DNA from: Diphasiastrum complanatum
Lineage: Eukaryota; Streptophyta; Lycopodiopsida; Lycopodiales; Lycopodiaceae
Reading direction: 5' to 3'
Assembly (NCBI GenBank): GCA_029204225.1
Contig: CM055097.1
Span: forward strand, 26,939,039-27,003,038
Length of the DNA stretch: 64,000 nucleotides
The notes under the pieces are model-generated. The model saw only the letters and a list, made by a program, of their open reading frames with translations, did no database searches and was not told the origin of the DNA. Below are positions 1-24,851 of this stretch, in pieces. How positions within the stretch are numbered: the first letter of the stretch is position 1; every line of letters starts with the position of its first letter. The translations under genes were made by a program, and so were the position numbers.

Positions 1-212
1 TGGCCGACTGCACGTCGGGACCCAACTGGGGGCCCTATCCTGCTGACAGGGTCCCTAGGCTGTGTTAGGCCCGCCATGGCTATGGACCGTGCTGGGGCAC
101 ACTACTCACACTGTCTTGCCCTGTTGGTCATGTACGCCGGACACGACCCTGACTGTGGTATCTGACTTATCTGTGTTTCCTAGGGTTCGGCACTGGTTAT
201 GAGCTCGTAACA
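1..212 (-). repeat. Family A Gypsy 5' LTR (element A1), cut by window edge
   Basis: Read on the minus strand this begins TGTTACGAGCTCGTAA at 212 and runs off the left edge. It matches the first 212 nt of the 358-nt LTRs at 6178-6535, 18582-18939 and 24494-24851. The flank 213-217 reads tgtac on the minus strand, identical to the 5 bp after the LTR at 6535, so this is the 5' LTR of the element whose 3' half lies on the plus strand. It carries the same internal 19-bp orientation as the 5' LTR at 24494-24851. It has several private substitutions. Confidence 0.9.
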
Positions 213-327
213 GTACATCACTCATGGCTTCCCTAAGATGATCTCGGAATTCATGCCGTACTTCGTCAAGGTAAGTGGAAGACGGTATGCGAGGCTCAGA
301 AGATGTAGGGGAAGTATCCATGGTCAA
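213..327 (-). pseudogene. Family B gag N-terminus (element B1), interrupted by A1
   Basis: A minus-strand frame opens at 327, with a second Met at 321. It contains PTSSEPRIPSS and HEFRDHLREAMSDV, resembling the gag starts of the family D copies (MAHAPTSSET, MTHSPTPSET). At 212 it runs into the family A LTR. The interrupted codon is completed by the sequence that follows the other LTR at 6541 on the plus strand, and the gag frame then continues (TDLRRKLRETF). It is therefore a real gag start split by a nested insertion and a later inversion. Gag forms the retrotransposon particle. Confidence 0.75.
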
Positions 328-1075
328 GGAATGCAGGAAGTGAAGAGAGTGTAAGAAAAGCTTAATATCGGAGGGAGCGGACTTTTGTCGTCACCCCAAA
401 TACGCTTTAGGTACACACACGACACTAAGAGCAAGAAAGGAAATGACAAATGTCAAGAAGAGGTGTGGAAAGCAAGGAAAAACCAGCAAAGATACCTCTC
501 GATAGAGCTCCAAGCATGTGCGACGAGCTGGCTAGAAAATGTGACCACAAGGAGAATGAAAGTCGGCGTTGGACAGCGTCCAATCAATGCTGAAAATATG
601 GCTGGAAATATGTGGAAAACGTGATGAAATAGGGCGATGGACAGCCTCCAATCAAAACTGAAATATGGCTGAAACTCTGCTGGAACAATGGCTGAAAAAT
701 GTGATGAAGTAGGGCGCTAGACAGCCTCCAATCAATGCTGAAAAGATGGCTGGGAATCCTCTCCCTGAATCAAATGGAGGATTCAAAAAAAAGAGGGAAA
801 AGGATTTGGAACTTGGGCGCCGGAAATAATCTGCCCAAAAACTAAAAAAAAAAATTTTTTTTTTACGGCCGCCAAATTTAGCGGAAGTACTTCCGCTAAC
901 TATCTGCTAAAGCTCCGCCAAGGAAAATGCTCTGATGGGAGTTGGTCCTCCTCCAAACTGTGCTGAATGTTGCTGAAGCAAAGAGACGAAAGCCCTCAGC
1001 AAAGAGAGAAAAATCAGCAAGGAAAATGGGCACCCAATCAAAAAATCAGATCTGAAATTCAGCAATCAGGAAAGT
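328..1075 (-). repeat. Family B 5' leader with tandem repeats
   Basis: This lies between primer site and gag start of B1. Minus-strand repeats of roughly 80-90 nt, each containing a variant of TTGGAGGCTGTCCA(T/G)CGCCCTA, occur around 560-760. The same unit is repeated in the leaders of family D. A conserved box, tttggggtgacgacaa on the minus strand (about 380-400), sits about 60 nt before the gag start and recurs at 30059 and 56031. No host gene is visible. Confidence 0.7.
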
Positions 1076-1087
1076 GCTCTGATACCA
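1076..1087 (-). promoter_or_regulatory. Primer binding site of B1 (initiator Met tRNA type)
   Basis: The minus strand reads TGGTATCAGAGC directly after the LTR end at 1088. This is the usual plant retrotransposon site complementary to the 3' end of initiator methionine tRNA. Confidence 0.9.
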
Positions 1088-1548
1088 AGTTATGATCAAA
1101 ATCTCAAGTGTTGAATCAATGAAGCATAAAAGACAGCAATAGACTAAAGCCCTACAAGCAATAGACAAGACAATAGGTTCTCCCACGAAGAGCCCAAGCA
1201 ATACCAATCAATAATCTGAAAAATGAGTGTACAAATGCCCCTATAAATACCCTACCAATGAACCCTAAAATAGGAATTCAAAAGTAAAGGGAGGCAAAAT
1301 GTGGAGGGAAAATAGTGCGCCCTCCTACGGGCCCCCACTCCTACGGGCCCCCACTCCATAATAAGGGCCCAAGGCCAATCAATGTCATAAAAAAGGACCC
1401 AGTGCGGGTCCTAAGCATATAAAAAGGCCTGTACATGACTAATATAAAATGTGTAACCAGAAATATACATAACCAACAGTAAATGTAAAGAGGCCTGCGG
1501 AATATATGCAGAGTAGCCCAGTAGGCCTGTATCCTGTAGTCCGTAACT
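1088..1548 (-). repeat. Family B 5' LTR (element B1)
   Basis: The 461-nt LTR starts AGTTACGGAC at 1548 and ends CATAACT at 1088 on the minus strand. It pairs with the plus-strand LTR at 10921-11377. Flank 1549-1553 reads cttga on the minus strand and matches 11378-11382, so the two LTRs bound one original element. It contains a 16-bp tandem duplication (1324-1339 and 1340-1355) absent from the 3' LTR. The termini are AGTTA and TAACT rather than TG and CA. A TATA-like motif (ctataaatac, minus-strand equivalent) lies near 1241-1250. Confidence 0.92.
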
Positions 1549-1593
1549 TCAAGGATCTATGACCAAATATCTGATGGTACCCACTTTTGAGAT

Positions 1594-1990
1594 CTATCTT
1601 ACTAAAAATGGTTGTCCCTGCAATGCATCCAGTAGATCATCAATCCTGGGCTTCGGATATTTGTGCTTTACGGTGATTTTACAATCCCTTGTAATCCACA
1701 CACGTCCAGAAACTACCATCCTTTTTCTTAACCAACAAAATGGGGGAGGCGAAAGGTGAATAACTACGAAAGACATACCCCAACCTGAGGTATTCTTCCA
1801 ACATCTTCTATACCTCCTCCTACAAGGAGGCCAACATACCGGGCTTGCCCCTGGAACGAGCTCAATACGATGCTGACAACCCCACTAGCATGCTATCAAT
1901 CAACAAATGTTTAAACTCAGCTCGAATGGATCTTTCCAACTGGCTTGCTGGGATCACCTCTGAGCTGCTGAGCTAAAGCATAATTTACAT
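1594..1990 (-). pseudogene. Degraded Gypsy reverse transcriptase fragment
   Basis: Minus-strand pieces read KKRMVVSGRVW, then ITVKHKYPKPRIDDLLDAL (an RT block equivalent to [18 protein letters not shown] in family A), then FSKIDLKSGYHQI in shifted frames near 1560. Stops and frameshifts are numerous. This was the upstream flank of B1 before the inversion. It belongs to a Gypsy lineage distinct from families A and B. Confidence 0.7.
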
Positions 1991-2049
1991 AAGACGTTAA
2001 ATAAGATGAAGTTGTTTCTAGATTATTAACTTGTGGGTTTATTGGTAAA

Positions 2050-2065
2050 CTACGAAAATATCTTG
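2050..2065. other. Inversion breakpoint inside A1 gag
   Basis: From about 2060 rightward the sequence is collinear with the gag region of the complete family A element (minus strand, near 23075). To the left homology stops and the inverted B1 flank begins. The start of A1 (LTR 1-212) faces the opposite way and continues off the left edge, as expected if one end of an inversion fell here. Confidence 0.8.
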
Positions 2066-5000
2066 CAGTATCGAGAAGCAATTTTAAAGATTAAAAATAT
2101 GGATGACTATCAGAAAATCAGGGGATTTGTCCGTGGCCTCAAAGATGAATATAAAGTAGAGATCCAGAGAAACTCCCCTACTACCCCTGAGCAAGCTCTC
2201 AGACATGCTCAAATCTATGATGATTCAGTGGGTAGGAAGAGGGCGAGACAGTAGCCACTTTCTGAGCAGCCTCCTCAAAAAGACTTTCAATTTAAAAAGA
2301 AATTTTTAAAAAGAAAGAACCAAGATAAATTTAAAAGTGAAGCTCCTCAGAAACGCCCTTCACTCATACAGCCCTTAAAACCAAATGATTTTGAGAAAGC
2401 CAAACAAGAACGTTTGTGCTTTGTGTGCATGGGCAAGGGACACACAGTCAGACAGTGTCCCAAAGGGCCTTTCCCTAAAAAAGATAAGAAAGATAAAAAA
2501 CAAGTTCATCTTGTTCAAACTCTATGTTTCCCCAGTGACTCGACAGCTTCCGAGATCAAAGTGTATCATGAAAATCATGAACACTGTTGCCAGCTGACCT
2601 CTGCAATGCTAGCGAGACCCTTCAGCTTTGGGCCGCATGACCTAGTACGTATGCATGGGAAAGTTGGTAACCAGTCAGTAAGAGTTATGGTTGATGATGG
2701 GGCAACCCATAATTTCATCAACCACACCCTGGTTAAAAAGCTTAAACTACCAGAAGTACCTAGTCAGCATAGGTACATAGTTTCATTAGCTAAGGGTGAA
2801 GATAAAAAAATATGGGAAACTATGGTAAGTAAGTTAAATCTTGGTATTCAGGGGTACCAAGATGAAATAAACTTTCAGATAATGCACCAGGATCGAACAG
2901 ACATTGTTCTCGGGAGAGATTGGCTCTACAGTTTAGGACCTTCCCTCCACAGAAACCATCAGGAGAACACCCTCAGCTTTCAGTATAAAGGCCGAGAGAT
3001 CCAGTTGCATGGGGAGCATGATGTTCCCAACAGCCCTATGGTCTGCAGTTCAGAGCTCTGTCAGCTAATCGGAGACGAAGACCATCAGGTATTCTTATGT
3101 GACTTTCAGTTTATTCCTGAAGTTTCTATTTCCAGTTCTATTCAGCAGAAAATCAGTAAATTAGAAACTTTATTGTCTAAATTTAAAGATGTTTTTCCTG
3201 AAGATTTGCCACATGGTTTACCAACTAGCAGAGAGGTAGATCATGTAATAAACCTAGTACTAGGTACAGCACCTGTTTCTAAACCTCCGTATCGGGTCAG
3301 CCGAACAGAGGATGAAAAAATAACTAGGCAGTTAACAGATTATCTTGGGAAAGGCCAAATTCAGACCAGTAGTTCACCATGGGCCTCACCAGTCCTCTTG
3401 GTGAAAAAGAAAGAGGGGTCTATGCGTCTTTGCGTAGATTACAGAGCCCTCAATAAAGTCACAATTAAGAATAAATACCCTATGCCTCGAGCAGACGAGT
3501 TGTTTGACCAACTCGATGGGGCTAAGTTTTTTAGTAAAATAGACCTCAGATCGAGATATCATCAAGTCCGTATAAAATCAGAAGATGTCTCAAAAACAGC
3601 TTTTAGGGCTCGTCACGGTCATTATGAGTTTAAGGTGATGCCATTTGGGCTCACAAATGCTCCAGCTACCTTTATGACCTTGATGAACAGTGTTCTCAGA
3701 CCATACTTGGGTAAGTTTGTAGTCATATTTTTAGATGACATCCTCATCTACAGCAAAACGAGGAAGGAGCATCTAAACACCTCAGAAAGGTGTTTTGACT
3801 GCTCAGAAAGCATAAGCTCTATGCTAAACAATCCAAGTGTGAATTCTTCGTTGAAGAAGTAGCATATTTGGGTCACATTATCTCTTCAGATGGGATTAAG
3901 ATGGACCCAAATAAGGTTAAAGCCATACTCAGTTGGCTGAGACCTCAGAATATTTTGGAACTTCAGATCTTTCTTGGTCTGGCGGGATATTACAGACGAT
4001 TTATCAAGGAATATGCTCAGATAGCAGTTCCTATGACAAATCTCCTTAAGGGGAAGGGAAAGGAGTTCATTTGGGAGTCCGCACAGCAGGAGAGCTTTAA
4101 TGCTCTCAAAACAGCCTTAGCTACAGCACCAGTTTTAAAAGTCGTCGACCCCAATCAGCCATTTGTGGTCGAAACAGATGCTAGCGACTTTGCAGTAGGT
4201 GTTGTGCTAACTCAGGGTGGACGACCTATTGCGTTCGAGAGTAAAAAACTCGAGCCAGCTCAGACTAGGTACAGTGCCTATGAAAAGGAACTCTTTTCTA
4301 TAGTCCACTTGGACGCATTATTTGTATGGTGCCAACTTTGAGATCCTGACAGACCATGAGAGTCTCAGATACCTTTGCAATCAACCTGAGCTTAGAGGTC
4401 GGAAAGCTCGTTGGGCAGAGTTGATGCAAGAGTTTGACATGTCTATCAGATATAGACATGGAAAATTCAATACAGTGGCAGATGCCCTTAGCAGAATGCC
4501 TATGACAAACGAGCTGAGTTTTACCCAGATTCGTAATGAGTTACTCGAGTCCTTGAGGGGGAAATGCCAGCATGATGCATTCTTCTCTACTATCTGGAAC
4601 TCAGTCCAGAGCAGACAGTTACAGACTCTAGAACCAGTTCCCGGGGCTGGTGCCATTTCATCCAAGAATACGGCAGCTTCCGTTGAGGATGATGATGAGT
4701 CCGAGTATATGTCGTCAGATGACGTTGAGGATTCTGAGCCTGTATTACCCAAGCAAACCCCAGTGGTTGAGGGTCAGTTGACTCAAGGATTCAAATGGAA
4801 ACAGTATTCCATTCAGGATGAGTACTTGCACTATAGAGATAGAGTATGTGTCCCCAATTCAGAGGATTATAGGCAACAGGTCCTATATGAATGTCATGAC
4901 AATCCTAGCGCGGGACACCCAGGCATACAGAAGACCTATGAGCTTCTTCGTAGGCAATTTTTCTGGCCCAGTATGAAAAAGGACGTCCAGCAGTATGTAA

Positions 5001-6166
5001 CCAGTTGCCAGAAATGTCAAGTAAATAAAGCAGAGCGTTTAAAGGCAGGAGGGTTGTTGCATCCCTTAGAAATACCAGCTGGTAAATGGGAGAGTATCTC
5101 CATGGATTTTATAGTAGGCCAACCTAAAACCCAAAAGGGTAATGACGCTATATGGGTCACAGTTGACCGTCTGACCAAAATGGCTCATTTCATTCCGACC
5201 AAAACAACCGTTAGAGCTCCAGAGTTAGCGAGGTTGTTTGTAGACGGGCTATTTAAATTGTACGGTCTACCTTCCGGCATAGTCAACGACCGGGACAGTA
5301 AGTTCACTGGAAATTTTTGGAGGGCAGTATTCCATCATCTCCATACTAAACTTAATATGAGTACCACCGACCATCCTCAGACGGATGGTCAAACAGAAAG
5401 GGTAAATCAAGTGCTGGAGGATATGCTTCGTGCATACGTTAGCAAGAAGCAGACTAATTGGGAGGAGTATCTCTCGATATTAGAGTTTGCTTATAACAGT
5501 ACCAAACATTCAGCTACGGGATACAGCCCATTTATGCTGATGTACGGTTTTCAGCCACGCTCACCCACAGCTGTAGGGTTTAAACAAGAAAAAGAAAAAG
5601 TTGAAGCAGCCAGAAACTTTTTAGAGGACCTAAACCAAATGATAGAACATGCTAAGCGTAGCATTAGGCAGTCCCAGGATCGAGCCAGGCATTATGCAAA
5701 TTAACACAGACGGGATGTGCAGTTCTCCACTGGTGAGAAAGTCTACTTGAGAGTCCCAGTTGACTCTAAAACCCTCAAATCAGGAGTGTGTGCTAAGTTG
5801 TCTCCAAGGTATTGTGGTCCCTTTACCATCAGTAGGAGACTAGGCGAGGTCCCCTATGAACTAGAACTCCCACACAGCAGTAAGGTTTTTCCAGTCTTTC
5901 ATGTAAGTCAGTTACGAAAAGCCTTAACCAGATCAGACAATCTGGTAGGGGACAGTGTTCTAGTTCTCCCATTGGATCCTCAGCAACCTCCACATGAACC
6001 AGAGGAAATTTTTGATAGTAGAGAGACGCAGACTCGTCATACTCTATACCGAGAATATCTGGTTAAGTGGAATGATCAGCCTGTTGAGAATGCCACTTGG
6101 GAAAGAGGCAGCGTCCTTCGCAAGATTTTTCCGGACTTTGTCTTAGAGGACCAAGACGGTTCTTAA
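2060..6166 (+). pseudogene. Family A chromovirus gag-pol, 5' truncated (element A1)
   Basis: Domains in order are: gag remainder; CCHC knuckle ([14 protein letters not shown], about 2424); aspartic protease (VDDGATHNF, about 2690); RT with FLDD (about 3731); RNase H (VETDASDF); HHCC zinc finger; integrase D-D-E (MDFIVGQ, NDRDSK, DGQTERV); and chromodomain (LVKWNDQPVENATWE). Against the minus-strand copy at 18951-23744 it carries a nonsense codon at 2252, a 1-nt deletion near 3776, an 11-nt deletion near 4312 and a nonsense codon at 5702. It is not functional. The natural stop is TAA at 6164. Confidence 0.93.
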
Positions 6167-6177
6167 GGGGGAGGGAG
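6167..6177 (+). promoter_or_regulatory. Polypurine tract of A1
   Basis: The purine run aagggggaggga g lies directly before the LTR start TGTTACG at 6178. It would prime plus-strand DNA synthesis. Confidence 0.85.
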
Positions 6178-6535
6178 TGTTACGAGCTCGTAACCAGTGC
6201 AGAACTCTAGAGAACACAGATAGGTCAGATACCACAGTCAGGGTCGTGTCCAGTGTACATGACCAACAGGGCAAGACAGTGTGAGTAGTGTGCCCCAGCA
6301 CGGTCCATAGCCATGGCGGGCCTAACACAGCCTAGGGACCCTATCCTGCTGACAGGGCCCCCAGTTGGGTCCCGACGTGCAGTCGGCCACGCCAGTGCCA
6401 CGTGGCCGACACTTGGCAGTAGCATGCTACCAGTCCTCACACTGGGCTAGGAGGGGCTTACTCTATATCAGGGAGTAGGCAAGGTTGGGTGGATCAGTTA
6501 GTGTTTGCCCTACTGTGGTGTTAGGAACTATTACA
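6178..6535 (+). repeat. Family A 3' LTR (element A1)
   Basis: The 358-nt LTR runs from TGTTACGAGC to ATTACA. The 5 bp after it (tgtac, 6536-6540) match the flank of the inverted 5' LTR at 213-217. By eye it differs from the 3' LTR at 18582-18939 by only about two substitutions. It differs from the 5' LTR at 24494-24851 by more substitutions plus a 19-bp inverted segment. A TATA-like ctatatcag lies near 6463. Confidence 0.93.
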
Positions 6536-9500
6536 TGTACACACTGATTTACGCCGAAAGTTACGAGAGACATTCACTGCTCTTTCTGCCCAGATTGCTA
6601 CACTATCAATACAGTCCAGTGTTTCTCCACTATCTCCACCTGTTCCCCCACAGCTTACATTTCCACCACCCGAGACTCCTTCATCTTCTGGTCCTTTGCC
6701 ATGAGACTTTAAGGATAAGGTTCAGCTTACTGTGTATTCTGGTTCATCCGACGGGAATGAACTCGAGAATTGGTATTCTAAGCTTGAGACCTACTTCCTT
6801 ATGTTTCCTAAGACTGACATTCAGCGGATACATTTGGCTGCTTTACATTTGGAGGGCCGTGCTGCTACTTGGTGGCGCAATGTTTCGCCAGACGGCTTCA
6901 CACCCTGGCCTTGCTAGTTGGACAGAGTTTATGACAGCACTCCGCCTAGCGATGACTGATCCTCAGTGGCTTATTCGATAGCGCGACATCTTTCGCAGTT
7001 TATCTCACACTGGTGACTTGGTTGCTTATACGACACGGTTTACAGAGCTTTCTTATCTATTCCCAGATATTTCTACATTGGAGCTCATCTCTCGCTACGT
7101 TGCTGGTCTACAAGGCGCACTCAGGTATGATGTTTCTTCTTTTTTTCCACTCACTCTTTCTCACGCCATCTCCCTTGCTACCGCACTGCAGCACAAGTAC
7201 TCTCCCATGTCGTCCTCTGTTTCTCGTCCTTCGCATCCTTTCACACGTCCTATTTTTTCCTCTCCATCCTCTGCTAGTCCCACATCTGTCAGTTCACCTT
7301 CGTCCACTCTTCCGTCTGCACCACGTCCTCCTTTTTCTCCTCGTCCTGTTTTTGTTCGTCGCTACTCACAGCCTCAGATGTCTGAGATCCGTGAGAAGCG
7401 CTTATGTTTCAACTGTAAGAGTCCTGATCATATCGCCCGTGATTGCCGACAGCCTGCCACTACTATTGTCGTCTATTTCCATGATGCTGACACACCTGAT
7501 GATAGTCCTGATTCTGCCATATGCCTTCATATTCTTGATGATGACCCACTTGTTGATCAGTTTGCCACACCCACTGAGCCTGTTCCTGATCCCCCTGATC
7601 TAGCTGTATGCCATGCTCAGCTTGCTTATGCTACTTGGGCCGGTAAGCCGGGTCCACGCCATATCCATCTTCGCGTACGTATCACTGGTGAGTTTATTGC
7701 CCTTGTTGACACGGGTAGCACTCACTCGTTTCTCAGCAGTCATACTACTACACGCATTCGTGCTATGCCAGTCACTACACCTCATCCCCTGCATGTTGAG
7801 GTTGCCAGCGCACACTCTTTTCCTAGCACGCAGATGTATCAGCAGCTTTCATATCGGATTGGAGACTTCCTTGGTCAGGCAGATTTTCATATTATTCCAC
7901 TTACACGGTACGATCTTATCCTTGGTGCTGATTGGTTTGCATCCCTTGGTGCGGTTACAGTAGACCTCCAGCAGCAGACATTGACATTCTCTCATGATGG
8001 TACTCAGCATATATTTTCCGGTATTGATTCTCGGCAGGACTATCAGCTTATTTCCGGGAAGCAGTTCATAAGGAGCCTCCCGAAGGCCCACTGTGCGGCT
8101 ATTCTTTCAGTTCAGCCTATTGCGGATGCACCACCTTTGCCACAGGTATTTTCTGAATTGTTGCGTGAATTTGAGCATGTTTTTAGAGAGCCGACTCAAT
8201 TACCACCTTTACGAGATGTCAACCACCATTCCTCTGCATCACCTCCTTCTCGTCCTCCTTTTCGTATGTCTATTGTTGAGCGCGAGGAAGTCCAGCGTCA
8301 GGTGTCTGATTTATTACGTCAAGGCCTTATTGCTCCTAGCCAAAGTCCTTTTCGTGCTCATGTTTTACTTGTTGATAAGAAGGATGGTACTAAACGTCTA
8401 TGTACTGATTATCGTGCTTTAAATAAACTTACTATCCGTAATCAATACCCTATCCCTCATATGGATGACCTATTTGACCAGTTAGGCCAAGCCAAGATCT
8501 TTTCTAAACTTGACCTCCGTTCCGGTTATCACCAGATTCGTATGCATCCTCCTGATGAGCACAAGACAGCTTTCCGTACCCACTTTGGTCTGTATGAGTT
8601 TCGTGTCCTTCCTTTTGGTGTTACCAATGGCCCGCCCACTTTTCAGAATGTCATGAATAACATCTTTCGTCCTCTGCTTGGAAAGTGTGTCATTGTTTAT
8701 TTTGACGATATCCTCATTTATAGCACCACTCTCTCTCTTCATGTTCAGCATGTTCGTTCTGTTTTTGTTTTGTTATTTACTCATCATCTGTATGCTAAAC
8801 GTTCTAAATGTTCTTTTGTTGTTGTACAAATCGAGTTTTTGGGCTTCTTTGTTACTAATGGTATTGTTCGTCTCGACCCTCGTAAGGTCCGTTCTATTCT
8901 TTCATGGCCTGTGCCTGCTGATGTTCATGATGCTCGTATGTTTCTTGGTCTTGCTATCCATCTTCGTAAACCAGTTGCTCATTTTGCCACTCTTGCATCT
9001 CCTTTGCATGCTCTGTTGAAAAAAGAAACTTCGTTTGCTTGGACTCCCGCATGTCAATCAGCTTTCGATACTTGGAAGGTTAAGCTTACCATTGCCCCTG
9101 TTTTATGTCTTCCAGATTTTTCCCAGCGTTTTGTTGTTGAGACTGATGCTAGTTCCACAGCAATAGGTGCTTTGTTAAGTCAGCGTCAGTGTGTTATTGC
9201 ATATGAATCCCGTCGTCTTCGTTCGTATGAGCAGCGCTATTCCACTCATGAAAAAGAGTTGCTTGCTATCATTTTTGCTTTAAAGAAGTGGCGTCATTAT
9301 CTGTATCGTGTTCCGTTTGATGTTTTTACTGATCACCAGTCACTTCGTTATTTGTATACACAAAAGGATCTTAGTGATCATCAGTACTGTCGGCTTCAGT
9401 TTTTACAGTCCTTTCATTTTGATATTGATTATAAGCCTGGTAAAAGTAACGCTGCTGCTGATGCTTTGTCTCGTTTACCTGCTCTTACTTACAGTCTTGT

Positions 9501-10844
9501 TACGTCTCCCCACTCTTGGTATGATGATCTTCCTCAGGCTTATGCCACATGTCCATACTTTCGTGATGTTATGTCGTCTGCCTCTCGTCCTTCCTCTCAC
9601 CCTCACCAGATTTATTCCATTGTTAATCATCGTTTGTTTCACTATGGTTCGTTATGTATTCCCAGCACTCTCGACATACGTCCACAGCTCCTTGATGCCC
9701 ATTCCTCTCCTGTTGGTGGCCATTTTGGTTTTCAGAAGTCCTTGTTCCGTTTGAAAGAACATTTTTATTGGCCTTCCATGAAGCGTGAGCTTTCCCACCT
9801 TATTCATACTTGTGATTTTTGCCTTCGTAACAAGTATTCCCGTGAAAAACCTGGCGGTCTCCTTCAATGTTAGCCTATTCCTTCTCGGCAGTGGACTGAT
9901 ATATCTATGGACTTCATTTTAGGTCTTCCCCGTACTCAGCGTGGTCATGACTCTTGTTTGGTGGTAGTTGATAGGTTTTCTAAACAAGCTCATTTCATAC
10001 CAGTCAGACGTACTATTACAGCAGAGCATTGTGGTCGTATATTTATTTCTGAGATTTTCCGCTTACATGGTCTCCCACGATCTATACTTACTGATTGGGA
10101 TACCAAGTTTACATCAGGTTTTTGGACAAAGCTTATGCGTATCTTGGATGTTAGGATACTTATGCGCACTGCTTATCATTCTTCTGCGGATAGTCAGTCT
10201 GAGGTTATTAACCGGATGATGCACCTGTTACTATTTCATCTTATCTTTCGAGTGCTCGGGAGATTATTACTAGAGCTGCTACTCATTTACAGCATATTCA
10301 GCAGCGGTACAGGACCATTGTTGATCGTCATCGGCGCCATGTTGAGTTTGTAGAGGGAGATACTGTTTTTCTCCGGTTACGCTTTGCTCGCCATCGTTTT
10401 GTACAGGGTCTTGCTTCTACTGAGAAGCTTGCGCCGCACTATTATGGGCCTTTTCAGATTCTTGAGCGCCTCAGTCCAGTTACATATCGTGTTGAGTTAC
10501 CTGCTGCTACTCGGGCTTGTGATATCTTTCATGTCAGTTTATTACGTGCTGCTATTGAGGATGATGCTCCTCGAGATTCCTCATTTCCTACAGATCCAGA
10601 GCTTTTTCCATTCCTGCCAGCTGCTATTTTACAGGTGCGCTTATTGCATAGTCGTCGCCATCGGCAGGTTCAGTTTTTGGTCCAGTGGGATGGTCGTCCT
10701 ATTGAGGAGGCTACTTGGGAGCCCATTGATGTTTTTTATCATACCCCTATCCTGGCTGATCAGGCTCGATCACTTGCAGCTACCATTGCTTCTCAGGATG
10801 CTCCGACTTCTCTTGATGTTCCTTTCTCAGATGGGATATCTTGA
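6536..10844 (+). pseudogene. Family B chromovirus gag-pol remainder (element B1)
   Basis: Gag resumes after the A1 insertion (YSGSSDGNELENW, ATWWRN) with stops and frameshifts up to 7017. A 951-codon open stretch then covers 7018-9873: CCHC knuckle (CFNCKSPDHIARDC, about 7408), protease (LVDTGSTHSF, about 7705), RT with the F/YFDD box (VYFDDILIYS), RNase H (VETDASSTA) and the HHCC finger. It ends at a TAG. The frame continues through the integrase core (MDFILGLP, TDWDTKF, DSQSEV). About 180 nt after INRM (near 10218) are missing relative to family D and the frame shifts. The chromodomain (FLVQWDGRPIEEATWEP) ends at 10844. It is clearly defective. Confidence 0.92.
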
Positions 10845-10920
10845 TGCAGTATTTTTCTCTGGCACTGGTTCTTATCTTATTTTGCCTACGTTGGGGGCAA
10901 TGTTCTTTATAGCCAGGGAG

Positions 10921-11377
10921 AGTTACGGACTACAGGATACAGGCCTATTGGGCTACTCTACATATATTCCGCAGGCCTCTTTACATTTACTGTTGGTTAT
11001 GTATATTTCTAGTTACGCATTTTATATTAGTCATGTACAGGCCTTTTTATATGCTTATGACCCGCACTGGGTCCTTTTTTATGACATTGACTGGCCTTGG
11101 GCCCTTATTATATGGTTATATGTGGAGTGGGGGCCCGTAGGAGGGCGCACTATTTTCCCTCCACATTTTGCCTCCCTTTACTTTTGAATTCCTATTTTAG
11201 GGTTCATTGGTAGGGTATTTATAGGGGCATTTGTACACTCATTTTTCAGATTATTGATTGGTATTGCTTGGGCTCTTCGTGGGAGAACCTATTGTCTTGT
11301 CTATTGCTTGTAGGGCTTTAGTCTATTGCTGTCTTTTATGCTTCATTGATTCAACACTTGAGATTTTGATCATAACT
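10921..11377 (+). repeat. Family B 3' LTR (element B1)
   Basis: The 457-nt LTR runs AGTTACGGAC to CATAACT and pairs with the inverted copy at 1088-1548. The purine-rich gccagggag precedes it. cttga (11378-11382) follows and matches the minus-strand flank at 1549-1553. A TATA-like tatttatagg lies near 11215. Confidence 0.93.
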
Positions 11378-11382
11378 CTTGA

Positions 11383-11699
11383 TATGTTATTGATCTTAAT
11401 CACATATTTGCTATCATACCTTCAAGATCTGTTTTGATCTCTTGTTTTATTATTCAGAAGTGCCCATTAGTACTACAAGAGTGTTTGTTAATACTTTATC
11501 AGGTTATATATCTATTATCACTCTATTGAGTTTTGATTAGGTTTGATCAAGACCAGCCAAATTTCTAGCATGCCAGTGAACTAGTTTCAATATTGTTGCC
11601 ACCTATTAGTTTCATTGGTTTTGAATCTATTAGATCTCACTTATTTTAGTCTCTTAAGCTTAAAGTGAGTGCTAGGGTAGAACATGTCTCATTCAAATA
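11383..11699. other. No supported gene
   Basis: AT-rich sequence. The first 25 nt (tatgttattgatcttaatca) resemble 18212-18231, an apparently uninterrupted relative of the B1 insertion site. Nothing else is recognised. Confidence 0.5.
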
Positions 11700-11795
11700 T
11701 ATCAAGTGCATTCAAATGTGATCTATTTTCATCAATGTGTCAAGTCATTGCAGTGCTTTTTTTGTGGAAAGAAAGGGCATTATTTTTATGAGTGT
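11700..11795 (+). pseudogene. Copia gag zinc knuckle, left part of interrupted element
   Basis: The frame contains CFFCGKKGHYFYEC, a CX2CX4HX4C knuckle typical of Ty1/Copia gag. It is interrupted right after the last Cys codon by an insertion at 11796 with TSD agtgt (11791-11795 and 12853-12857). The Copia frame resumes at 12858 with a basic tail and then the protease. Confidence 0.7.
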
Positions 11796-12852
11796 TGTTA
11801 TGTCCATGTCCAGTACAAGGGAATCGGAATTATTCCTGACGTGGATAGCCGGTCACTCCAGTTGTATGTGGTTATTAGTTATGCTACGTCATTCCGGACG
11901 TGGTCGTATTAAATAATTAATAACCATATGAGGGCCTAGACCTATAATTCGACACAGGAGCACATCCGGAATGACGTAGCATAACTAATAACCACATAAA
12001 ACTGGAATGACCGGCTATCCACGTCAGGATTAATTCCGATTCCCTTGTACAGGACATGGACATAACATTATTAAAAATCCGAGTCGTCCACAACCACAAA
12101 CAACTTTCTGAATACCTCCTTAAACTCGTCCCATGTGGTAGGTTTAGGTTGTAAGTCACGCCACCACGACGAAGCTTTACCACGGAAGAACAAAATAACA
12201 CTCTCTATCTTTTTACCACTGTAAACTTCATGACAGCTTAGGGACAGCTTCATTACATCTCTGAAAACGTCCATACCAATTCTAGGCTGAGAATTTTGAG
12301 ATCTACCCCAAGTTTAGTTCGAAAACCATCAAAAAACCTTGGTTTTTGACCAATTCTGACCAAAATTTGTGGGGGAAATCCACAAATTCAAGCCTTCAAA
12401 TCCAAATCCTTGTAATTCCATTGCATGCAAGCACCAAAAGTTCTAATTCAAGTCAAACATGGTTTCCATAGCCCATTTATGGTCCAAAAACCCCAATTTT
12501 TGGTCCAAAATCACTATCTAATCAACATTTTGACTTTTCAAACAACATGCAATCATTAAATTCTGATGACTGTAAAATAGTAAGTACAATCTGGAAAACG
12601 TACTACACCAGATCCTATGATCATTTCCTTGCAAAAACCATCAATTTTAGGTGAAAAATTCACTAAATTCATCAAAAATCCTATGATTTCCATCAAAATT
12701 CATGGAGCAAATTTACAATTATGATCATTAATTATTTAATACGACCACGTCCGAAATGACGTAGCATAAGTAATAACCACATACAACTGGAGTGACCGGC
12801 TATCCACGTCAAGAATAATTCCGATTCCCTTGTACAGGACATGGACATAACA
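11796..12852. mobile_element. 1,057-bp nested insertion with 126-bp terminal inverted repeats
   Basis: Both ends read TGTTATGTCCATGTCC inward, and about 126 bp at each end are inverted copies with few mismatches. Perfect 5-bp TSDs (agtgt) flank it. A third copy of the end sequence lies on the minus strand at about 11961-12064. It forms, with the left end, a second inverted repeat around an approximately 60-bp spacer. TG..CA ends with a 5-bp TSD are typical of LTR retrotransposons, and a gag-like frame lies inside. The outer LTR-like ends nevertheless point at each other, which is not normal LTR order. Confidence 0.75.
12071..12274 (-). pseudogene. Gypsy-type gag fragment in the nested insertion
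   Basis: A 67-codon minus-strand frame contains SVILFFRGKASSWWRDL and TWDEFKEVFRKLF, the tryptophan-rich core of plant retrotransposon gag. It ends immediately before the internal LTR-like copy at 12064. No zinc knuckle or pol remains, so the element would be non-autonomous. Confidence 0.65.
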
Positions 12853-12857
12853 AGTGT

Positions 12858-18163: not shown

Positions 18164-18214
18164 TTGTGTAGGTTTTGTAATGTACAATCACTTTGGTCAT
18201 CAGTCCTTGATATG

Positions 18215-18581
18215 TTTTGATCTTAATCACCCTAGACCTGGAGAAAGTACTTCAAAAAGCACCTGTATAACTGACTTTCCAACCCTACTAGCCCAGGTAT
18301 CTCTTGTTCACTTATGTACTTCCAGCCCCAAGGAGTCCTTACTTTCTACTACCATCAACGAGACTTTAAGTTGATATGTCTTTGAAGGAACTATTATTGT
18401 AGGCTTCATTGACTCCCGTATCAAGCTCGTCAATCAAACGTTGCAACCAGGTGATGTCATTTTGGTTCCCATAACTATGGCTTCCTAGTTTGATTATTTG
18501 TCAAGTTGAAAATTGGGAACCGGGATCATTATAGTTTGGGCAGAACTGCATGGTCCATTTTATTCCTGGATAGAGAGTTTA
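18215..18581 (+). pseudogene. Germin-like (cupin) protein fragment, degraded
   Basis: One frame reads YVFEGTIIVGFIDS then LVNQTLQPGDVILVP, close to the second cupin motif of germin-like proteins (EGTLYVGF, LxxGDVFVFP). In a shifted frame GVLTFYYHQRDFKLI could be the diverged first His-containing motif. Stops and frameshifts show it is not expressed as a germin. Element A2 inserted at 18581. The call is by motif memory only. Confidence 0.4.
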
Positions 18582-18939
18582 TGTAAGAGTTCCTAACACC
18601 ACAGTAGGGCAAACACTAACTGATCCACCCAACCTTGCCTACTCCCTGATATAGAGTAAGCCCCTCCTAGCCCAGTGTGAGGACTGGTAGCATGCTACTG
18701 CCAAGTGTCGGCCACGTGGCACTGGCGTGGCCGACTGCACGTCGGGACCCAACTGGGGGCCCTGTCAGCAGGATAGGGTCCCTAGGCTGTGTTAGGCCCG
18801 CCATGGCTATGGACCGTGCTGGGGCACACTACTCACACTGTCTTGCCCTGTTGGTCATGTACACTGGACACGACCCTGACTGTGGTATCTGACCTATCTG
18901 TGTTCTCTAGAGTTCGGCACTGGTTACGAGCTCGTAACA
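18582..18939 (-). repeat. Family A 3' LTR (element A2)
   Basis: The 358-nt LTR runs on the minus strand from TGTTACGAGC at 18939 to TCTTACA at 18582. gttta (18577-18581) matches 24852-24856, a perfect 5-bp TSD. Its internal 19-bp segment is in the same orientation as in the other 3' LTR (6178-6535). Confidence 0.96.
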
Positions 18940-18955
18940 CTCCCTCCCCCTTAAG
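18940..18955 (-). promoter_or_regulatory. Polypurine tract of A2
   Basis: The minus strand reads cttaagggggagggag directly before the 3' LTR, overlapping the gag-pol stop codon (TAA, 18951-18953). Confidence 0.85.
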
Positions 18956-21900
18956 AACCGTCTTGGTCCTCTAAGACAAAGTCCGGAAAAATCTTGCGAA
19001 GGACGCTGCCTCTTTCCCAAGTGGCATTCTCAACAGGCTGATCATTCCACTTAACCAGATATTCTCGGTATAGAGTATGACGAGTCTGCGTCTCTCTACT
19101 ATCAAAAATTTCCTCTGGTTCATGTGGAGGTTGCTGAGGATCCAATGGGAGAACTAGAACACTGTCCCCTACCAGATTGTCTGATCTGGTTAAGGCTTTT
19201 CGTAACTGACTTACATGAAAGACTGGAAAAACCTTACTGCTGTGTGGGAGTTCTAGTTCATAGGGGACCTCGCCTAGTCTCCTACTGATGGTAAAGGGAC
19301 CACAATACCTTGGAGACAACTTAGCACACACTCCTGATTTGAGGGTTTTAGAGTCAACTGGGACTCTCAAGTAGACTTTCTCACCAGTGGAGAACTGCAC
19401 ATCCCGTCTGTGTGGATTTGCATAATGCCTGGCTCGATCCTGGGACTGCCTAATGCTACGCTTAGCATGTTCTATCATTTGGTTTAGGTCCTCTAAAAAG
19501 TTTCTGGCTGCTTCAACTTTTTCTTTTTCTTGTTTAAACCCTACAGCTGTGGGTGAGCGTGGCTGAAAACCGTACATCAGCATAAATGGGCTGTATCCCG
19601 TAGCTGAATGTTTGGTACTGTTATAAGCAAACTCTAATATCGAGAGATACTCCTCCCAATTAGTCTGCTTCTTGCTAACGTATGCACGAAGCATATCCTC
19701 CAGCACTTGATTTACCCTTTCTGTTTGACCATCCGTCTGAGGATGGTCGGTGGTACTCATATTAAGTTCAGTATGGAGATGATGGAATACTGCCCTCCAA
19801 AAATTTCCAGTGAACTTACTGTCCCGGTCGTTGACTATGCCGGAAGGTAGACCGTACAATTTAAATAGCCCGTCTACAAACAACCTCGCTAACTCTGGAG
19901 CTCTAACGGTTGTTTTGGTCGGAATGAAATGAGCCATTTTGGTCAGACGGTCAACTGTGACCCATATAGCGTCATTACCCTTTTGGGTTTTAGGTTGGCC
20001 TACTATAAAATCCATGGAGATACTCTCCCATTTACCAGCTGGTATTTCTAAGGGATGCAACAACCCTCCTGCCTTTAAACGCTCTGCTTTATTTACTTGA
20101 CATTTCTGGCAATTGGTTACATACTGCTGGACGTCCTTTTTTATACTGGGCCAGAAAAATTGCCTACGAAGAAGCTCATAGGTCTTCTGTATGCCTGGGT
20201 GTCCCGCGCTAGGATTGTCATGACATTCATATAGGACCTGTTGCCTATAATCCTCTGAATTGGGGACACATACTCTATCTCTATAGTGCAAGTACTCATC
20301 CTGAATGGAATACTGTTTCCATTTGAATCCTTGAGTCAACTGACCCTCAACCACTGGGGTTTGCTTGGGTAATACAGGCTCAGAATCCTCAACGTCATCT
20401 GACGACATATACTCGGACTCATCATCATCCTCAACGGAAGCTGCCGTATTCTTGGATGAAATGGCACCAGCCCCGGGAACTGGTTCTGGAGTCTGTAACT
20501 GTCTGCTCTGGACTGAGTTCCAGATAGTAGAGAAGAATGCATCATGCTGGCATTTCCCCCTCAAGGACTCGAGTAACTCATTACGAATCTGGGCAAAACT
20601 CAGCTCGTTTGTCATAGGCATTCTGCTAAGGGCATCTGCCACTGTATTGAATTTTCCACGTCTATATCTGATAGACATGTCAAACTCTTGGATCAACTCT
20701 GCCCAACGAGCTTTCCGACCTCTAAGCTCAGGTTGATTGCAAAGGTATCTGAGACTCTCATGGTCTGTCAGGACCTCAAAGTTGGCACCATACAAATAAT
20801 GCCTCCAAGTCTTAAGGGCATGGACTATAGAAAAGAGTTCCTTTTCATAGGCACTGTACCTAGTCTGAGCTGGCTCGAGTTTTTTACTCTCGAACGCAAC
20901 AGGTCGTCCACCCTAAGTTAGCACAACACCTACTGCAAAGTCGCTAGCATCTGTTTCGACCACAAATGGCTGATTGGGGTCGACGACTTTTAAAACTGGT
21001 GCTGTAGCTAAGGCTGTTTTGAGAGCATCAAAGCTCTCCTGCTGTGCGGACTCCCAAATGAACTCCTTTCCCTTCCCCTTAAGGAGATTTGTCATAGGAA
21101 CTGCTATCTGAGCATATTCCTTGATAAATCGTCTGTAATATCCCGCCAGACCAAGAAAGATCTGAAGTTCCAAAATATTCTGAGGTCTCAGCCAACTGAG
21201 TACGACTTTAACCTTATTTGGGTCCATCTTAATCCCATCTTAAGAGATAATGTGACCCAAATATGCTACTTCTTCAACGAAGAATTCACACTTGGATTGT
21301 TTAGCATAGAGCTTATGCTTTCTGAGCAGTCGAAACACCTTTCTGAGGTGTTTTAGATGCTCCTTCCTCGTTTTGCTGTAAACGAGGATGTCATCTAGAA
21401 ATACAACTAGAAACTTACCCAAGTATGGTCTGAGGACACTGTTCATCAAGGTCATAAAGGTAGCTGGAGCATTTGTGAGCCCAAATGGCATCACCTTAAA
21501 CTCATAACGACCGTGACGAGTCCTAAAAGCTGTTTTCGAGACATCTTCCGATTTTATACGGACTTGATGATATCCCGATCTAAGGTCTATTTTACTGAAA
21601 AACTTAGCCCCGTCGAGTTGATCAAACAACTCGTCTGCCCGAGGCATAGGGTATTTATTCTTAATTGTGACTTTATTGAGGGCTCTATAATCTACGCAAA
21701 GACGCATAGACCCCTCTGTCTTTTTCACCAATAGGACTGGTGAGACCCATGGTGAACTACTGGTCTGAATTTGGCCTTTCCCAAGATAGTCTGTTAACTG
21801 CCTAGTTATTTCTTCATCCTCTGTTCGGCTGACCCGATACGGAGGTTTAGAAACAGGTGTTGTACCTGGTACTAGGTTTATTACATGATCTACCTCTCTG

Positions 21901-23744
21901 CTAGGTGGTAAACCATGTGGCAAATCTTCAGGAAAAACATTTTTAAATTTAGACAATAAAGTTTCTAATTTACTGATTTTCTGCTGAATAGGACTGGAAA
22001 TAGAAACTTCAGGAATAAACTGAAAGTCACATAAGAATACCTGATGGTCTTCATCTCCGATTAGCTGACAGAGCTCTGAACTGCAGACCATAGGGCTGTT
22101 GGGAACATCATGCTCCCCATGCAACTGGATCTCTCGGCCTTTTTGCTGAAAGCTGAGGGTGTTCTCCTGATAGTTTCTGTGGAGGGAAGGTCCTAAACTA
22201 TAGAGCCAATCTCTCCCGAGAACAATGTCTGTTTGATCCAGGTGCATTATCTGAAAGTTTATTTCATCTTGGTACCCCTGAATACCAAGATTTAACTTAC
22301 TTACCATAGTTTCCCATATTTTTTTATCTTCACCCTTAGCTAATGAAACTATGTACCTATGCTGACTAGGTACTTCTGGTAGTTTAAGCTTTTTAACCAG
22401 GGTGTAGTTCATGAAATTATGGGTTGCCCCATCATCAACCATAACTCTTACTGACTGGTTACCAACTTTCCCATGCATACGTACTAGGTCATGCGGCCCA
22501 AAGCTGAAGGGTCTCGCTAGCATTGCAGAGGTCAGCTGGCAACAATGTTCATGATCTTCATGATACACTTTGATCTCGGAAGCTGCCGAGTCACTGGGGA
22601 AACATACAGTCTGAACAAGATGAACTTGTTTTTTATCTTTCTTATCTTTTTTAGTGAAAGGCCCCTTGGGACACTGTCTGACTGTGTGTCCCTTGCCCAT
22701 ACACACAAAGCACAAACGTTCTTGTTTGGCTTTCTCAAAATCATCTGGTTTTAAGGGCTGTATGAGTGAAGGGCGTTTCTGAGGAGCTTCACCTTTAAAT
22801 TTATCTCCTTTCTTTCTTTTTAAAAATTTCTTTTTAAATTGAAAGTCTTTCTGAGAAGGCTGCTCAGAAAGTGGTTGTTGTCTCGCCTTCTTCCTACCCA
22901 CTGAATCATCATAGATTTGAGCATATCTGAGGGCTTGCTCAAGGGTAGTAGGCGAGTTTCTCTGGACCTCTACTTTATATTCATCTTTGAGGCCACGGAC
23001 AAATCCCCTGATTTTCTGATAGTCATCCATATTTTTAATCTTTAAAATTGCTTCTCGATACTGCGAGATGTATTGGATGAGGGATTTATCCATTACTGTT
23101 CTTTCCCAGGCTTCCCAGGCTCTATCCAGTTCATTTTCTGGTAGAAATTCTCTTAGGAAAGCTTCTTCAAAAGCTTTCCATGACCGGGGAGTCTGCCTAG
23201 TCTCCTGGAGATTTAACCACCACTTATAGGCCATAGGCCCTAAGGAAAGACTGGCCTCAATTGCTTGCAAATGGTCAGGGGTCTGTTTAAGAGCATGAAT
23301 GTTCTTCCATTTGCTGAGGAAGGTTTGTAGAATATCTGCATTTCTATCCTTCTCTTCCCCATTAAAAGTAGGAGGCTTTAAATCTTTAAAAACACTGGGG
23401 TGAGACCGTAAAGTCTCACCCGAAACTGATGGAAGTGGAGAAGGGGATAACTGAGAAGTGGAGGGAAGGCTTCCTTTCGCGGAACTCAAAATTAAGTTTT
23501 TGAGTTCAGCGAACGAGTCGTCCACACTGGACTTGAAATTGGCTAATGCCAACTTCAGTTCATCCACTTCTGTTACCAATTGGAGAAACTGCTCCTTGGT
23601 AACCAGTTCATCGAGTTCTTCGGCGAACTGTTCCTGTTCTTCCACTTCCATGGGTTCCTTCCCTTTCCTGTAAGCCAAGGCTTCTGTTTCAAGTTCGTCG
23701 AAGCCTCTCACCTGGGGTTGATCAGGTCCCTGAGGAGTGGTCAT
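18951..23744 (-). pseudogene. Family A chromovirus gag-pol polyprotein, nearly intact (element A2)
   Basis: A single frame of 1,598 codons from ATG 23744 to TAA 18951 is broken only by two nonsense codons: TAA at 21240-21242 (Ser codon in A1) and TAG at 20913-20915 (Gln codon in A1). Domains, approximate residues: gag 1-340; CCHC knuckle 346-359; protease VDDGATHNF about 435; RT with FLDD about 783; RNase H from VETDASDF about 928; HHCC finger 1170-1215; integrase D about 1244, D about 1303, E about 1341; chromodomain (LVKWNDQPVENATWE) about 1550-1590. It lacks indels relative to the inferred ancestor. It encodes all enzymes for retrotransposition of a chromovirus but would be cut short at RT. 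Confidence 0.95.
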
Positions 23745-24480
23745 TTTCGGAACTGAAAGAGAGGTACCTTAACTTCTATCTGAAAACAAGAAAAGAGATT
23801 GACTAACTGGAAAACGAAAGTAGAGTACTTAGCTCTTTCTTAGGACTGTACTTCCAGAGCAAGAAACCCCCTCAGTTCTTCCGCAGCTGTCCAATCCGTC
23901 CTCTTAAAGTGCATGCCATCAGATGAAGGCAATCTGGAAATTGTGTAGATGATTGTTGGAGAACCCCTGCTGATAGAGTTTGCCTCTGCTGCCTCCAAAA
24001 ATCAAAGTTACAACATAGAAGACTGGTCGCTGATCTGTCCTCTGTCTGATCACCAAAGTTGGAGCAAAAACTTCTAAAGATCAGGGAGCAAACTACAGTT
24101 TAACTCCTGCCTGTCCAGCGCTGAATCTGCCTTAAGATTTCTGCCCTGAAACTACTTCAAAATCCGGAAACTTCACTCCGAAATCAAAGCTCAACCCTGA
24201 TTTGGCAGCGCTGGACCTGTCCTCAGATCTGTCCCCATAATCCGCTCAGAAATCTGGATAAAAACATTCGAAAATCAGGGATGCAAGCTGATCTGTCAAC
24301 GCTAGAACTGTACAAGGAAATTGCCTCTAGAACACTGAAAATCCCAGCAAATTTAATTGAGTAGAGAGCTGTTCCTACAGCGATGTCCCTCTTCTACTCT
24401 TTTCTGAAAATCTGAGAATTCTTTCCTAGCTTCTTATAGATTTCTCTACTGCTGCTACTAAGCTCCCAAAGAAGAAGATG
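23745..24480 (-). other. 5' untranslated leader of A2
   Basis: Between primer site and gag ATG. It has C/T-rich stretches and repeated tctga-containing words but no open frame. It is expected to hold the packaging signal by position only. Confidence 0.6.
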
Positions 24481-24492
24481 GCTCAGATACCA
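24481..24492 (-). promoter_or_regulatory. Primer binding site of A2
   Basis: The minus strand reads TGGTATCTGAGC, one mismatch from the initiator Met tRNA site TGGTATCAGAGC, one base after the LTR end. Confidence 0.8.
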
Positions 24493-24493
24493 G

Positions 24494-24851
24494 TGTAAGA
24501 GATCCTAACACCACAGTAGGGCAAACACTAACTGATCCACCCAACCTTGCCTACTCCCTGATATAGAGTAAGCCCCTCCTAGCCCAGTGTGAGGACTGAT
24601 AGCATGCTACTGCCAAGTGTCGGCCACGTGGCACTGACGTGGCCGACTGCACGTCGGGACCCAACTGGGGGCCCTATCCTGCTGACAGGGTCCCTAGGCT
24701 GTGTTAGGCCCGCCATGGCTATGGACCGTGCTGGGGCACACTACTCACACTGTCTTGCCCTGTTGGTCATGTACACTAGACACGACCCTGACTGTGGTAT
24801 CTGACCTATCTGTGTTCTCTAGGGTTCGGCACTGGTTACGAGCTCGTAACA
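24494..24851 (-). repeat. Family A 5' LTR (element A2)
   Basis: 358 nt, TGTTACGAGC at 24851 to TCTTACA at 24494 on the minus strand, flanked by gttta (24852-24856). By eye it differs from its own 3' LTR at about five positions and by inversion of a 19-bp segment. Confidence 0.96.

Follow-up and report, generated by a model that had tools for sequence, protein, structure and literature searches.

Comparison with other copies of the same repeat families indicates that a segment of 3,778 bp, which starts 1,720 bp left of the window and ends at window base 2058, lies inverted across the gag gene of one retrotransposon (A1) and a fragment of another (element C); the observation made in the initial annotation is confirmed. 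The window is the whole stretch of 64,000 nucleotides analysed (G000:C6:26939039-27003038). The 30 kb left of it were also examined, and the searches covered an assembly of 1.74 Gb in 5,176 contigs. As a rearrangement it is of an ordinary type, at a locus that is unusually legible; what is new here is the apparent overwriting of the 3' end of A1 by A2, a second element of the same family.

Arrangement of the nested elements

Element B1 lies in two pieces of opposite orientation. On the minus strand, its 5' LTR (AGTTACGG...CATAACT; 1088-1548, delimited by self-comparison) adjoins the leader and the start of gag (213-1087, from sequence reading and family copies), which start with a primer-binding-like site, TGGTATCAGAGC, that we take to fit initiator tRNA-Met. 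On the plus strand are the remainder of gag and pol with a chromodomain, interrupted by stops (6541-10920), and the 3' LTR (10921-11377, also from self-comparison). The two LTRs are 96.5% identical in the self-comparison of the window.

A1 is split in the same way. The outer 212 bp of its 5' LTR occupy 1-212 on the minus strand, inside the inverted segment, as seen from self-comparison and from the left flank; the other 146 bp are left of the window, followed by the leader and the gag start to 1,720 bp left of base 1. The rest is on the plus strand: the gag remainder, protease, RT, RNase H, integrase and chromodomain (2060-6177), in several pieces with stops and frame changes, and the 3' LTR (6178-6535), which contains a 19-bp micro-inversion. 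By self-comparison, the 5' LTR part at 1-212 (minus) matches 6178-6389 (plus) at 93.4%, and 2060-6536 matches A2 at 18581-23069 with 97.9% identity. A2 itself (18582-24851, minus strand, from self-comparison) is inverse to the right part of A1. The third component is a fragment of gypsy element C at 1568-2058 (minus strand, defined from C copies), which reads as part of an RT region; it is the former upstream flank of B1, now inverted.

The target site duplications were read in the sequence. That of A1 is gtaca at 213-217 (tgtac on the minus strand, the inverted copy) and tgtac at 6536-6540 on the plus strand (the uninverted copy); that of B1 is cttga on both sides, on the minus strand at 1549-1553 (inverted) and on the plus strand at 11378-11382 (uninverted). 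With A1 left out, the codon phase of B1 gag is continuous across the insertion site, the two pieces of B1 itself being open and in the same phase. The description from which we started, a nested pair of elements both split, with these duplications and with a B1 gag frame open in the absence of A1, holds, the LTR and body pairs being recovered in their proposed orientations by self-comparison of the window. The same is true of the proposed likeness of the joined outer flanks of B1 to 18190-18233: they match 18181-18230 with a score of 60, whereas 200 shuffles reached 30 at most.

The B1 empty site that resembles 18181-18230 consists of 1549-1567 joined to 11378-11425. As matches to C end at 1568, C was seemingly joined to other sequence before B1 arrived. 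Directly right of B1, a unit of about 110-134 bp is present in both orientations (11795-12067 and 12720-12853), its copies being 93-96% alike; it is possibly a small inverted-repeat element.

Eight pieces of A1 and B1 were scanned against Pfam, and one of them gave no match. Protease, RT, RNase H, the integrase zinc-binding domain, a weak integrase core, SH3_Tf2-1 and a chromodomain were found in A1; zinc knuckle, protease, RT, RNase H, parts of the integrase, SH3_Tf2-1 and a chromodomain were found in B1. The integrase core scored below the Pfam cut-off of 32.6 bits in both elements (21.2 in A1, 31.8 in B1), and both pol regions are interrupted. With RT and RNase H before the integrase, a chromodomain at the integrase end and 5-bp target site duplications, A1 and B1 are classified, from predicted domains, as Ty3/gypsy chromoviruses. 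One B1 piece showed 32-51% identity to the 120 proteins listed of 1,059, and those named by organism were from plants; in a search of solved structures, a B1 integrase piece matched only the Ty3 Gag-Pol (7q5b). Nested plant Ty3/gypsy elements with a chromodomain have the same Pfam set (RVT_1, RNase H, integrase zinc-binding and core, SH3_Tf2-1, Chromo) and 5-bp duplications; the present pair differs in that it was cut by a later inversion and in the LTR ends of family B.

Family A LTRs end in TG...CA, whereas those of family B end in AG...CT (AGTTA...TAACT), with matching 5-bp target site duplications in all four copies in which both ends were seen. The LTR ends examined were those at 1088-1548 and 10921-11377 and those of L002-L008, L063, L064 and L066, together with L065, which has no 3' LTR. 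TG...CA ends are usual and not defining, and the other ends named in the accessible part of the same source are TG-GA, TA-CA, TG-TA, TG-TT and AA-CA (PMC5659011). AG...CT is not among the published motifs compared, namely those in that part of PMC5659011 and in one further source, and the ends of family B are unusual.

Contiguity of the breakpoints in other family copies

The family B search listed 41 other matches, of which seven were cut out as loci. B gag is contiguous in all seven: the piece that stops at 213 on the minus strand runs into the piece that starts at 6536 on the plus strand, with an overlap of exactly 5 bp. Since L007 and L008 are near-duplicates, six of these loci are independent. 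The 76 residues of B gag around the site contain no stop in five of the seven copies, and one each in L004 and L008.

For family A, the listing gave 39 other places that have a leader of the A1 type, and 12 of these loci were fetched, A2 serving as the reference for the gag breakpoint (A2 positions 23070-23075). The left and right gag pieces are exactly 6 bp apart in ten of these 12 loci, and in A2; L047 and L048 stop short of the site. Three near-duplicate pairs among the ten leave seven independent loci. On the side of element C, 41 other matches were listed and nine cut out; in all nine (six of them independent) the match proceeds to 2058 and, 4-10 bp further on, enters, on the opposite strand, the sequence just outside the left breakpoint. 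By alignment, this test of C contiguity, which had not been foreseen by the initial annotation, brings the former outer neighbours of the inverted segment back together.

The left flank bore out an explicit prediction. Family A leader and gag on the minus strand had been expected left of the window, over about 1.5 kb and with homology ending near A2 position 23075; 1,574 bp were measured (L009 8281-9854), and homology ends at 23076. The breakpoints were likewise correctly placed in A1 gag and in the upstream flank of B1, and we can add that this flank, 1568-2058, is the C fragment. The proposed order, with insertion of B1, insertion of A1 into B1 gag and then inversion, fits all the pieces, the off-window prediction and the contiguity of C.

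No second instance of the right junction between C and A was detected beyond the locus itself (40 candidates scored of 1,888). Nor did the scored candidates (40 of 2,870, 1,888 and 1,600) include another copy of the locus or an alternative haplotype of it. Among the 40 candidates scored, the best other long match was 96% for the 5' part of B1, 85% for the C piece (40 of 1,888, with shorter pieces at no more than 94% over 112 bp) and, for the left flank, 85% over only about 380 of 1,001 bp.

It was observed that seven pairs of loci (L007/L008, L014/L015, L016/L017, L018/L019, L045/L046, L050/L051 and L052/L054) are 99.0-99.9% identical over most of their length. Six of the seven pairs are on the same chromosome, some of them inverted; the pairs are either recent segmental duplications or retained haplotypes.

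Probable gene conversion between A1 and A2

The two A1 LTRs differ at 16 of 356 positions and those of B1 at 13 of 457, and without the 19-bp flipped unit the A1 pair still has 13 mismatches in 339. A1 must be younger than B1 because it is nested in it. Taken alone, the larger divergence of the A1 LTRs argues against this order, and the two can be reconciled only through conversion.

The 3' part of A1 contains a tract (4100-6535, plus strand) about 99% identical to A2, which we read as converted and the left edge of which is blurred (from about 3925 to 4630). Other long matches to the A1 3' part reach 96-97% (40 scored of 6,380 candidates), and some short pieces (50-72 bp) match at 96-100% among the candidates scored. 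Along the alignment of A1 with A2, mismatches are dense until about 3925, sparser until about 4630 and rare beyond; the two elements differ by 3.45% over 2060-2900, 3.50% over 2900-3900, 0.96% over 4060-5200 and 0.31% over 5200-6177. Compared with other copies, A1 differs by 1.85-3.51% over these last two intervals. A tract of raised identity common to A1 and its likely donor A2, and not to other copies, is the probable result of ectopic gene conversion.

Two features of the LTRs bear on the direction and timing of this exchange. The 19-bp flip lies within a short palindrome and was found in two of 29 LTR places (which include some from near-duplicate loci), namely the 3' LTRs of A1 (6178-6535) and A2 (18582-18939). 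L020, an additional stretch scanned, has the standard form, and the 5' LTRs of both A1 and A2 are without the flip. Reverse transcription gives both LTRs of a new copy identical sequence, and the best explanation of the flip is therefore an exchange between 3' ends after both insertions. Columns 33 and 45 of the LTR alignment are G and A in 15 of 16 LTRs of copies with the A1 leader and in the A1 5' LTR. They are A and G in the A1 3' LTR, in both A2 LTRs and, respectively, in five of six and six of six LTRs from other top matches. The letters in the A1 3' LTR point to A2 as donor, and A2, which lies 12 kb away in inverted orientation, has apparently overwritten the 3' end of A1.

As a consequence of the apparent conversion of its 3' LTR, the LTR divergence of A1 is not usable as an age, and conversion can explain why it exceeds that of the host B1. 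In the part of the study available to us, about one nested element in four has a higher LTR divergence than its host element, and gene conversion is proposed as a contributor (PMC7251063). A1 resembles those cases, with the difference from the cases described there that a likely donor can be named, namely A2, inversely oriented and 12 kb distant. The locus is a concrete case, with its likely donor known, of gene conversion making LTR divergence misdate nested elements. Family A has at least two leader types: the leaders of A1 and A2 are strongly unlike (L009 9000-9850 compared with 23865-24441), and their gag and LTRs are alike.

Joining of the breaks and alternative origins

At the left junction, A gag runs to ...CTCATC and C continues with ATTCACA.... 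The C copies have TCATC (L018, L019) or less at this point, which gives a microhomology of 1-5 bp; its length varies with the C copy taken as ancestor, being 5 bp by L018 and L019 and less by others. At the right junction (2058-2060, from alignment to family copies), C homology extends to 2058, ending in ...CTACGAAAA, and A1 gag restarts at 2060 with TATCTTGCAG; the boundary between C and A can be placed only to within one or two bases. A lost about 4-6 bp at its breakpoint (CAATAT or CAATAC in the copies) and C roughly 6-11 bp. No similarity, direct or inverted, was detected between the breakpoint neighbourhoods when one C and one A copy were compared, 181 of 300 and 230 of 300 shuffles scoring as high. 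Small losses, 1-5 bp of microhomology and breakpoints without shared homology fit end joining of two breaks. Judged from the sequence, the locus has the marks of an end-joined inversion: a reversed segment whose neighbours adjoin each other in uninverted relatives, breakpoints that share no long homology, and small losses at the junctions. An inversion from staggered breaks with duplicated ends was considered and rejected, as the duplication was not seen at either junction.

The joint explanation that we consider very probable is the following. Comparison with family copies shows that B1 inserted beside the C fragment and A1 into B1 gag; later, the 3,778-bp segment between the break in C and the break in A1 gag was turned round. 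The likely cause is a pair of nearby double-strand breaks repaired by end joining, at the cost of a few bases per site and with microhomology of 1-5 bp at one of the junctions, rather than recombination between inverted repeats. Apart from this, and probably unrelated, gene conversion after both A insertions would have copied approximately the 3' 40% of A2 onto A1.

Replication-based template switching, in which a fork stalls and resumes by microhomology, is an unlikely origin for the inversion. The short microhomology possible at the left junction would suit it; however, a balanced inversion requires two switches, and neither junction shows duplicated or extra copied sequence.

It is distinctly improbable that inversion and conversion were one repair episode, in which A1, through inverted pairing with A2, became prone to breakage, one of its broken ends copying A2 and the other being wrongly joined to C. 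The converted tract begins about 2 kb from the breakpoint, a distance that does not favour this reading; if it were true, inverted nested retrotransposons would be breakage hot spots minting small inversions.

An assembly error, that is, a 3.8-kb stretch placed in the wrong orientation, is very improbable. The assembly does contain near-identical duplicated stretches, some inverted and mostly on the same chromosome; against such an error, the window and L001-L012 contain no N and no repeat is common to both breakpoints. Furthermore, an assembler flip is expected to be exactly balanced or to lie in inverted repeats, whereas a few bases were lost at both sites, with possible microhomology.

It is hardly credible that two separate A elements were set side by side, one inverted, by unrelated rearrangements. 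The left and right parts of A1 do differ in their closest relatives, the leader being strongly unlike that of A2 and the 3' end 99% identical to it, but both parts adjoin a single site in B gag with one 5-bp duplication, and other copies have the two gag ends 6 bp apart, which led us to reject this possibility; the likeness at the 3' end is explained by conversion (A2-type letters, and a flip in two of 29 LTR places). Recombination between A1 and A2, inverted repeats 12 kb apart with an apparent exchange of sequence, is scarcely tenable and was also rejected, as a crossover would flip the DNA between them and not 3.8 kb to the left, and the left breakpoint is in C, without homology to A.

In the literature listed on inversions in nested elements, on small inversions in plants, on gene conversion and on unusual LTR ends, no title or opening of an abstract pointed to this locus, and a search combining nested elements, small inversions and microhomology gave a single human paper. 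In inversions ascribed to ectopic recombination between transposable elements, according to the portion of the report at hand (PMC12368964), such elements are at the breakpoints as they are here, but the present breakpoints have no homology to each other. Inversions are among the rearrangements that arise via double-strand breaks and ligation, as stated in the section consulted (PMC2686159). End-joined small inversions are, as here, near-balanced, with few bases lost, 1-5 bp of microhomology possible and no repeat homology between breakpoints. There is no difference in kind, and what is unusual is only that three repeat families make each breakpoint readable nearly to the base. Small flips in repeat DNA are easily mistaken for independent elements; this one is readable in repeat-rich DNA, its breakpoints being comparable with uninverted family copies.
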